The notes beneath the pieces were generated by a model. The model was not told the origin of the DNA and made no database searches. It was given only the letters and a program-made list of their open reading frames with translations. This document shows, piece by piece, positions 50,435-52,917 of a stretch of 64,000 bases of DNA. The position numbers and the translations under genes were made by a program. This DNA is from Ignavibacteria bacterium (GTDB taxonomy: Bacteria > Bacteroidota > Ignavibacteria > Kapaibacteriales > Kapaibacteriaceae), in contig JACPPD010000003.1 in the NCBI GenBank assembly GCA_016191145.1, positions 62,001 to 126,000 on the forward strand. Reading direction: 5' to 3'. Position 1 is the first letter of the stretch. Each line of letters begins with the position of its first letter.

Positions 50435-51007
50435 CTAATACTCCATCGTAATATGCCCCCTGTACGTCACGTATCTCGGAGCTATGGGATCGGACATCAG
50501 TACCTGTAACGATCCCTTTATAAGTCTTTCGGAATAAATGCCAATCCACGCTATCCGCAGCTGGCGCCCAGCGTAGTCCGTGTACCATTTGAAGGGAACA
50601 TCATTTCCATTATAGTCAAGATAGGTTCCTTCCACCCAACTGTATTTGTTAACGTAGTTTCTGTACTTACTGTCGCAAGGAACGCGATCAGCCGAAAAAC
50701 ACAGGCGGTTAACAAACGGAGAGTAGTTACTAGCTGGTTTGACTGTATCCGGAAGATTAAAGACAAACCAGGGGATGGTAATCTCGTACGGGCTGACTCC
50801 TCGTTCAATCCAAATTGTGTTCAGCAGCGATGTATCTGTAACGATGGCTTCGTATGCACTGTCGCCAAAGTAATACAGGAACGACAACCGTGTGGGATGC
50901 ACTGCTCCATCGGTGTAAGTCTTCGACCTTTCCACGCTGAGGTCCAACGGAGAAGTGCATGCAACGGCAGCGACTGCCAGCAAGACGGCTATGGCGCCGG
51001 CTCGCAT
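50435..51007 (-). CDS. Lipoprotein of the sigma/anti-sigma operon
   Basis: 190 residues from ATG 51007. The first 17 residues (MRAGAIAVLLAVAAVAC) are a lipoprotein signal with lipobox AVAC, so the mature protein is probably anchored by lipid to the outer or inner membrane, facing the periplasm or the surface. The mature part (SFLYYFGDSAYEAIV, WFVFNLPDTVKPA, VEGTYLDYNGNDVPF) is beta-rich by eye and I recognise no family. The start lies one base past the stop of the anti-sigma-like barrel gene, so translation is coupled. Context suggests a sensor or ligand partner of that protein; this is inference. Confidence 0.7.
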   Translation of the reverse strand: MRAGAIAVLLAVAAVACTSPLDLSVERSKTYTDGAVHPTRLSFLYYFGDSAYEAIVTDTSLLNTIWIERGVSPYEITIPWFVFNLPDTVKPASNYSPFVNRLCFSADRVPCDSKYRNYVNKYSWVEGTYLDYNGNDVPFKWYTDYAGRQLRIAWIGIYSERLIKGSLQVLMSDPIAPRYVTYRGHITMEY

Positions 51008-51008
51008 G

Positions 51009-52229
51009 TTAGCGTATCGAGCCGATGTCGACGCTAAGGCCATAAGAGACACCCCACTTTGTTGATGTAAACGAATTACCCTGGAACTGATAGAGCAACG
51101 CCGAGCCATCGAGGCCGAGCGTCATGCGGAGCGGACCAACTGGTTGGTACGATAAACCAATTGTTCCTCTTCCAATTGGACCTTGTTCAAATACCATCCC
51201 AAGCGTAGCTTCGGCAAATGGAGAAAGACCTGAGAGAAAAGAAAATTCAAATGGTGTTACGATGTACGTGCCCCCTATCCAAAAAAGAACGGGAGTTTGT
51301 ACGATGCTTACTTGCCGGTTTAATTCGTAGCCTGTGAATTCCTGACGGAAAGATTCCTGACCCATCTCCACACCAAGCTGATGATGCTCAGCAAGTGGGA
51401 AGAGAAGTGAAAATGCAGTGTTGGGCGCCATCGCATCTTGAACCGATTGCGGCACGCGTTCTGTTTGTGGTATACCTGAAGCAAGTGTTCGAATGCGCAG
51501 TGCAACCATTGGTGAATACGATGATTCTGAAAGGGGCTGAGGTCTGCGTAAAGACTTCATCATTTCAGAAGCAATCGGTTGGCGATGCAACTGTGGGTCG
51601 GGGGTTTGCGGCAAGGCAGCACTGCTCGATTCGAGCACGAGATCGTTTGAAGAAGTTTCTTCGTTCAACGTCAAGGTTGGTGAATCTGCTGGCTGAACCT
51701 CAACCGGAGATGCATTTTTCGTTGACTGAGCTGGCACTGTGCGAGTGATCACTCGCGTTGAATACACGGTGTCAACTTCTGCAACAACAGAAGGCTGCTG
51801 CTGCTGATCTGTGTGTTTTCCAGAATAGACTGCTGTGCCGCTGGTTTGCATCACTCCCTGCGTATCCATCATAAACCATGCTATAACTAAGCCGAGAGCG
51901 ATACCAAGAATACCTGAAAGCAATCGGTTAAGCAGAATGTTAGGACTGCGCGTTGCAGTAGCTAAAGCTGCAGCGCCTGCTCCGGTGCTCACGGCACTTC
52001 CCAAGCCAACTGCGGAGAGGAGACTCGATTCTACTTGCGCAGGCGGCGAAGTGATATCGCGATGTACGGCAGCTCTGATGCTGAGAACATCCTTCATTTC
52101 TGTTCGCAAGTCTACCGACGCAGCGAGTTCGTCGAACAGTCGCTGCTCTTCAGAAATATCAAGTTCACCATCGAGAAAAGCATATAGTGCTTCACTCGAT
52201 TCGGGCGGTGTGAAATTCATTTGTGACAT
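51009..52229 (-). CDS. Envelope-spanning anti-sigma-like protein with C-terminal beta-barrel-like domain
   Basis: 406 residues in four parts. (1) Residues 1-65, cytoplasmic: a short helical segment with ALYAFLDGELDISEEQRLF, the LDGEL start typical of anti-sigma factor N-termini; it lacks the HxxxCxxC zinc motif. (2) One TM helix at about 102-121. (3) A 117-residue linker rich in S, T, P, Q. (4) Residues about 239-406 with eight amphipathic strands such as TAFSLLFPL, HQLGVEMGQES, QTPVLFWIGGTYIV, FAEATLGMVFEQ, GTIGLSYQPV, LRMTLGLDGSALLY and WGVSYGLSVDIG, like a small PorT-like barrel. The gene lies 4 nt after an ECF sigma factor. A plausible reading is a sigma regulator linking outer membrane to cytoplasm. 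Barrel insertion is inferred, not shown. Confidence 0.68.
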   Translation of the reverse strand: MSQMNFTPPESSEALYAFLDGELDISEEQRLFDELAASVDLRTEMKDVLSIRAAVHRDITSPPAQVESSLLSAVGLGSAVSTGAGAAALATATRSPNILLNRLLSGILGIALGLVIAWFMMDTQGVMQTSGTAVYSGKHTDQQQQPSVVAEVDTVYSTRVITRTVPAQSTKNASPVEVQPADSPTLTLNEETSSNDLVLESSSAALPQTPDPQLHRQPIASEMMKSLRRPQPLSESSYSPMVALRIRTLASGIPQTERVPQSVQDAMAPNTAFSLLFPLAEHHQLGVEMGQESFRQEFTGYELNRQVSIVQTPVLFWIGGTYIVTPFEFSFLSGLSPFAEATLGMVFEQGPIGRGTIGLSYQPVGPLRMTLGLDGSALLYQFQGNSFTSTKWGVSYGLSVDIGSIR

Positions 52230-52233
52230 ATTA

Positions 52234-52827
52234 TCAAGCCCTGTGATTTAAATCTTCGAGATATGGAGCAAGAATGTCGCGCAGCCGCTTCTTCGCACGG
52301 AAGATTCTAACTTTCACAACATCTAACGTCTGACCAATTATCTCAGCGATCTCGTTGTATGATAGACCGTTGTATTCACGCAGCACAAACGCTTCGCGAT
52401 AATCCTCGGGTAATAACTCGAGTGCTGTCTGGATCAACTGAAGCAGCTCCTTTTGTTCATACGGAATGTCGCGCACCGTCAGGTGGAAGTCTTCGACCGG
52501 TATGTACTGACGTTTTGCTCGAGAGCGGTGCGACAGGCACAGGTTTCGTGCAATCGTCATCAGGTAGGCAGGGAAGTTCTCTATCTGCCTTCCCTGCTTG
52601 CCTGCTTCGAACAGCTTTACAAAGGTTTCCTGAAGTAAGTCCTCGGCAGTGTGACTGTCGCCCGTTATTTTACGACAATAGGTGTAGATTCTTTGCGAAT
52701 ACCGCCTATACAGTACCGTTAGTGCCTGTTGTGCTGTAACGTCGGCGCTCGCGAACTTCGCATACAGTTCTAAATCCGGCGTCTCATCGGCGTCAGTCTT
52801 TCGCAACTGCATGGTTCCTACCGTCAT
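52234..52827 (-). CDS. ECF-type RNA polymerase sigma factor
   Basis: A sigma-70 family factor of the ECF group. Region 2 is LYRRYSQRIYTYCRKITGD with DLLQETFVKLFEAG (the DAEDLxQETF-like core), and region 4 is LPEDYREAFVLREYNGLSYNEIAEIIG followed by VKVRIFRAKKRL (each quoted in parts). Region 2 binds the -10 element and region 4 the -35 element. The frame is open from 52890 but early residues have no conservation; ATG 52827 (MTVGTMQ) or 52812 (MQLRKT) fits better. The adjacent downstream gene starts 4 nt after its stop. It is separated by 28 nt from the divergent nagZ start. The operon it controls probably includes itself. Confidence 0.92.
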   Translation of the reverse strand: MTVGTMQLRKTDADETPDLELYAKFASADVTAQQALTVLYRRYSQRIYTYCRKITGDSHTAEDLLQETFVKLFEAGKQGRQIENFPAYLMTIARNLCLSHRSRAKRQYIPVEDFHLTVRDIPYEQKELLQLIQTALELLPEDYREAFVLREYNGLSYNEIAEIIGQTLDVVKVRIFRAKKRLRDILAPYLEDLNHRA

Positions 52828-52917
52828 AACGGTTCCTAAGTGCGTTCGCGTGCATAGACTGTATGTACTATCTGGTGTTACAAGGTGCAACCTAATGATA
52901 AACCTTAATTTGGATGT

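Follow-up and report, generated by a model that had tools for sequence, protein, structure and literature searches.

The window, the 64,000-nt stretch of DNA analysed here, comes from an Ignavibacteria bacterium with a 2.47-Mb genome; in NCBI taxonomy, Kapaibacterium belongs to the Bacteroidota, class Eximiradiia. A three-gene operon on the minus strand encodes an ECF sigma factor, a 406-aa protein and a lipoprotein (Table 1). The 406-aa gene starts 4 nt after the sigma gene and is followed after 1 nt by the lipoprotein gene. The sigma product matches Pfam Sigma70_r2 (E 1.7e-18) and Sigma70_r4_2 (E 3e-17). Against an 83%-identical ortholog, dN/dS is 0.02/0.47 for the sigma gene, 0.04/0.43 for the 406-aa gene and 0.08/0.59 for the lipoprotein gene, indicating that purifying selection acts on all three. 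Because this selection is joined by order-wide conservation of the arrangement, the operon is far beyond chance. The trio is real and conserved, and an earlier note on this DNA had read it correctly, with every ORF at the coordinates, strand and spacing that it gave.

Table 1. Features of the operon and of a candidate target gene (positions in the window unless a contig is named).
Feature	Position	Strand	Basis
ECF sigma factor, 197 aa	52234..52827	-	Pfam Sigma70_r2 and r4_2; adjacent in 43/44 family loci
Predicted single-chain anti-sigma/outer-membrane barrel protein, 406 aa	51009..52229	-	AlphaFold model; homologs in 58/60 relatives (Kapaibacteria/Ignavibacteria)
Putative cytoplasmic anti-sigma domain, residues 10-60, three helices, LDGEL motif	52050..52202	-	pLDDT ~95; RseA_N/zf-HC2 matches in family members
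Predicted inner-membrane TM helix, residues 98-122	51864..51938	-	Helix in AlphaFold model
Predicted disordered periplasmic tether, residues 123-240 (~118)	51510..51863	-	pLDDT mostly <50
Conserved DTV(Y) motif in tether, residues 153-156	51762..51773	-	D153, T154 and V155 invariant in ortholog alignment
Predicted 8-stranded outer-membrane beta-barrel, residues 241-404	51018..51509	-	pLDDT mostly >90; matches to solved barrels
Lipoprotein, 190 aa, beta-rich	50435..51007	-	Signal and lipobox Cys17; model mean pLDDT 82
Post-lipobox tag CTSPLD	50942..50959	-	C-x-x-P motif among operon lipoproteins
ECF-type promoter TGTAAC-N17-GTC, proposed autoregulatory	52857..52882 (-35 at 52877-52882, -10 at 52857-52859)	-	Ortholog conservation
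Met-zincin lipoprotein gene, same genome	G000:C10:147961		Motif upstream (L134, L150)

Homologs of the 406-aa protein are present in nearly all relatives searched (Table 1). In a sample of 296 genomes from the phylum, full-length matches were confined to the order and a few members of the class; outside these, the N-terminal domain alone was matched, mostly in short proteins. A set of 44 distinct full-length copies was curated. An ECF sigma gene lies directly upstream in 43 of them, so that the domain order is indeed kept beside ECF factors, a check that the earlier note had proposed. A lipoprotein gene lies directly downstream in about 41 of the 44, 40 by an automatic test and one (L017) by eye; the locus extracted for the window's own copy (L032) ends too early for the downstream test, and its lipoprotein is nonetheless present in the window. 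Copy number can be high, and the 7.9-Mb genome G037 has 33 matches to the family. For one copy in G037 (L100), no sigma gene was recognised in the 300 nt upstream. The window's genome also carries an ECF operon (L101, 2183-3678 of G000:C11) whose anti-sigma-like N-terminus and TM helix lead to a TPR-like C-terminus, not a barrel. Next to it and divergently oriented are a barrel-like ORF, separate from the anti-sigma gene, and a lipoprotein, possibly a split version.

The 406-aa protein was modelled with AlphaFold as one chain, using 29 homologs. N-terminal helices (residues 11-59) were predicted at pLDDT ~95 and barrel strands (243-401) mostly at >90. Segments 283-293/296-302 and 305-311/314-324 can be taken as two bulged strands, giving eight strands in total. 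Fold searches with residues 238-404 returned the OprF N-domain (4rlc, Z 13.0, rmsd 2.7 over 120), NspA (1p4t, Z 13.0), OmpA (1qjp, Z 12.1) and a designed transmembrane barrel (Z 12.9). No sequence home for the barrel domain was found in Pfam, NCBIfam or PDB. A C-terminal Phe, as in outer-membrane barrels, is present in 23 of the 44 members, and the TM segment is hydrophobic in all 44 (mean Kyte-Doolittle 1.45-2.47). Pfam RseA_N matches 8 of 29 family members (best E 1.1e-4) and zf-HC2 also matches among members. The N-terminus of the window protein itself scores below curated Pfam cut-offs and has a weak likeness to RseA (NCBIfam RseA E 0.01; RseA in PDB E 0.13 only). From the letters alone, the earlier note had described a short cytoplasmic LDGEL-type segment, one TM helix (102-121), a 117-residue linker and eight C-terminal strands. 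The model agrees closely, with an anti-sigma-like N-terminus, a helix at 98-122, ~118 disordered residues and an eight-stranded barrel of outer-membrane type. The protein is thereby predicted to sit in both membranes.

Identity among orthologs is 67% in the anti-sigma domain, 22% in the tether and 57% in the barrel. Tether length ranges from 111 to 203 residues (median 134, 44 members). A 111-residue chain at ~0.35 nm per residue would extend ~38 nm, sufficient for a periplasm. A floor on length without conservation of sequence is the pattern that a spanning tether would show. The DTVY motif stands inside this otherwise unconserved segment and is a possible docking or cleavage site.

The promoter motif TGTAAC-N17-GTC was found upstream of the sigma gene in 14/14 aligned ortholog loci, in which the surrounding DNA has diverged; in the window it lies ~30 nt before the sigma ATG. 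A promoter conserved ahead of the sigma gene itself is what an autoregulated ECF sigma factor typically shows, and we infer that the sigma factor would directly recognise this motif. No paralog group carries it. Loci of a second paralog group share a different promoter-like element, GTAAC and GTTA separated by ~17 nt (L002 at G000:C17, L019, L020, L022, L024, L027, L052, L053 and L060), which suggests that paralog circuits are insulated.

A genome-wide scan for the motif returned 9 sites (4+5), fewer than its read-backwards control (23+16), and single sites outside the operon are therefore mostly uninformative. A genome-wide regulon defined by motif alone was therefore rejected; only the operon and one further gene, encoding a DUF5118-DUF5117-DUF4953 met-zincin lipoprotein, survive comparison between genomes. 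The motif precedes the met-zincin gene in 5/13 genomes at N17 and in 6/13 at N16-18. Shuffles predict 0.02 and 0.09 such cases, respectively, and permuted motifs give no more than 1 (N17). The met-zincin gene is thus a probable member of the regulon. A secreted Ig-domain protein (G000:C5) was discarded as a member, its N17 site being kept in the closest relative only.

The lipoprotein signal reads LLAVAAVA|C17. Of 40 operon lipoproteins, 32 have a C-x-x-P motif after the lipobox, or 31 when the pattern is made stricter; much of the 32 reflects shared descent within two groups. The tag recurs in divergent copies (CNDPLEV, CRNPLDV, CRQPIDI, CVSPVDV, CDNPIDI and CQSPTDI), and the lipoprotein bodies of different paralog groups are unlike and otherwise unrelated. 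Among other lipoprotein-like ORFs of the same genome, C..P.[DE] was found in 0/32 (464 kb). Most simply, the leaders would have a partner in common, for which the co-encoded barrel would be the obvious candidate; alternatively, the tag may be a sorting signal specific to operon lipoproteins. The lipoprotein had been suggested as a sensor or partner, and the conserved tag makes the role of partner more likely. A PDB fold search with the lipoprotein model gave no clear match. Barrel-like or lipocalin-like hits were weak (Z 5-8) and within noise.

These features probably describe an envelope-sensing sigma/anti-sigma operon built on one polypeptide that would reach from the cytoplasm to an outer-membrane barrel. 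Domain order, predicted barrel fold, conservation, operon structure and promoter motif are the computed parts of this model. In the mechanism that we infer, the N-terminal helical domain would bind the co-encoded sigma factor in the cytoplasm and hold it inactive, the TM helix would cross the inner membrane, the disordered tether of ~118 residues would cross the periplasm and the barrel would insert in the outer membrane. The lipoprotein, at the outer membrane, probably engages the barrel via its C-x-S-P-L-D leader and sets the state of the barrel. If the barrel were unassembled or lost, or if it changed along with its lipoprotein or ligand, cutting or pulling of the tether would follow, and intramembrane proteolysis would then free the sigma factor. 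An RseP family member is present in the genome; no site-1 protease was identified, which counts against the mechanism. The freed sigma factor would transcribe its own operon from TGTAAC-N17-GTC and probably also the met-zincin lipoprotein gene. That one chain could tether an outer-membrane barrel to a cytoplasmic sigma-binding domain, as first suggested from the sequence, gains support from the predicted barrel, the RseA-like N-terminus and the adjacent sigma gene.

The putative N-terminal anti-sigma domain bears a weak likeness to that of RseA in the sigma-E system of Escherichia coli, and both proteins have a single TM helix. The periplasmic portion of E. coli RseA is a small C-terminal domain to which RseB binds, whereas in the window protein a tether leads on to the predicted outer-membrane barrel. 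As in FecA-FecR-FecI, an outer-membrane signal would be passed to an ECF sigma factor. Fec, however, comprises three separate proteins including a TonB-dependent receptor, and no match to FecR, STN or TonB-receptor domains was found in the three operon proteins.

The closest likeness in architecture is to the Dma proteins of Bacteroides thetaiotaomicron, whose founding description is reportedly that of Pardue in PNAS in 2024. Dma1 and Dma2 combine an anti-sigma domain, a TM helix, a disordered tether and a C-terminal barrel in one chain, an experimental precedent; the cognate sigma factor, of group ECF21, is encoded alongside, and deletion of Dma frees it and raises vesiculation (PMC13088901). 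Because Dma1 and Dma2 have the same architecture, the single-chain, two-membrane principle is already known, contrary to the earlier note, which named no characterised example. The window protein shares this domain order as predicted by AlphaFold and fold search, and in its family, too, the ECF sigma gene is directly adjacent. A search of the open-access literature returned nothing further on the same arrangement in Ignavibacteria or on a protein spanning both membranes.

Bacteroides-type dma2-like and probable dma1-like loci were recovered via DUF4943 and NigD, the dma1 assignment resting on the neighbouring nigD gene. The dma2 operon likewise has three genes, the third of which (DUF4943) is lipoprotein-like. 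The DUF4943 protein bears a lipoprotein-type signal, for example ...FSLFSC (L088, L090, L091, L092, L096), so both systems may have a lipoprotein as their third gene. No homology to Dma1/Dma2 was detected: hhalign probabilities against the recovered loci were 0.1-1.5%, and no alignment of the whole protein or of its N- or C-terminal part was significant. Dma barrels match Pfam OMP_b-brl, whereas the barrel of the window family matches no Pfam family, and by Pfam the third gene of the window operon falls outside DUF4943. In a sigma factor tree, 41 of 43 family sigma factors group together (100/97) and Das1/Das2 lie outside this clade on a branch of length 3.0, such long branches leaving the deeper order unsure. 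By these comparisons the window family appears to work like Dma and to be a separate version with no detectable relation, very distant homology being possible.

Three other explanations were weighed against a two-membrane sensor. The barrel may merely report outer-membrane protein assembly; on failing to insert, it would present its C-terminal strand to a DegS-like protease, in the manner of the sigma-E pathway. The RseA-like N-terminus, the C-terminal barrel signal residue of many members, the RseP homolog and the met-zincin in the probable regulon all fit such a reporter, which would nevertheless leave the near-constant tagged lipoprotein next door and the several paralogs per genome (33 matches in G037) unexplained; we regard it as doubtful, and as the most serious of the three. 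It is improbable that the chain is processed after translation, with the barrel released to the outer membrane, the anti-sigma stub kept in the inner membrane and no spanning chain at steady state. Anti-sigma factors such as RseA are usually inactivated by proteolysis, and a cut would be tolerated in a tether that is long, disordered and unconserved. Parts working apart, however, would enforce neither the domain fusion, which is kept across the order and beyond, nor the tether minimum of 111 residues, and the Dma precedent also argues against processing (PMC13088901). Least credible is a conventional anti-sigma factor of the inner membrane carrying a soluble periplasmic beta-barrel of lipocalin or avidin type: alignments to some avidin and PsbO chains reach Z ~9, but the best matches are transmembrane barrels (Z 12-13.7 covering 238-404, against only 9.0 for soluble avidins), the terminal residue is aromatic and the tether is long enough to cross the periplasm.

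The two-membrane sensor thus remains the preferred reading, and the separate family and its expansion, the promoter in all orthologs sampled, the motif before the met-zincin gene and the C-x-S-P-L-D tag of the lipoprotein are new. Tentatively, the family may form an independently evolved, order-wide class of two-membrane anti-sigma factors, each copy with its own tagged lipoprotein. The C-x-S-P-L-D leader would dock in or on the cognate barrel, the arrival or ligand state of the lipoprotein would be relayed through one chain to the sigma factor, and paralogs would be insulated by different -10 elements. If the two-membrane reading is true, signalling by one polypeptide across both Gram-negative membranes arose in more than one form in the Bacteroidota, and a whole order of mostly uncultured bacteria would rely on it, frequently through multiple copies in one genome. 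A lipoprotein partner bearing this tag would give a specific, testable candidate for what is sensed by the barrel.
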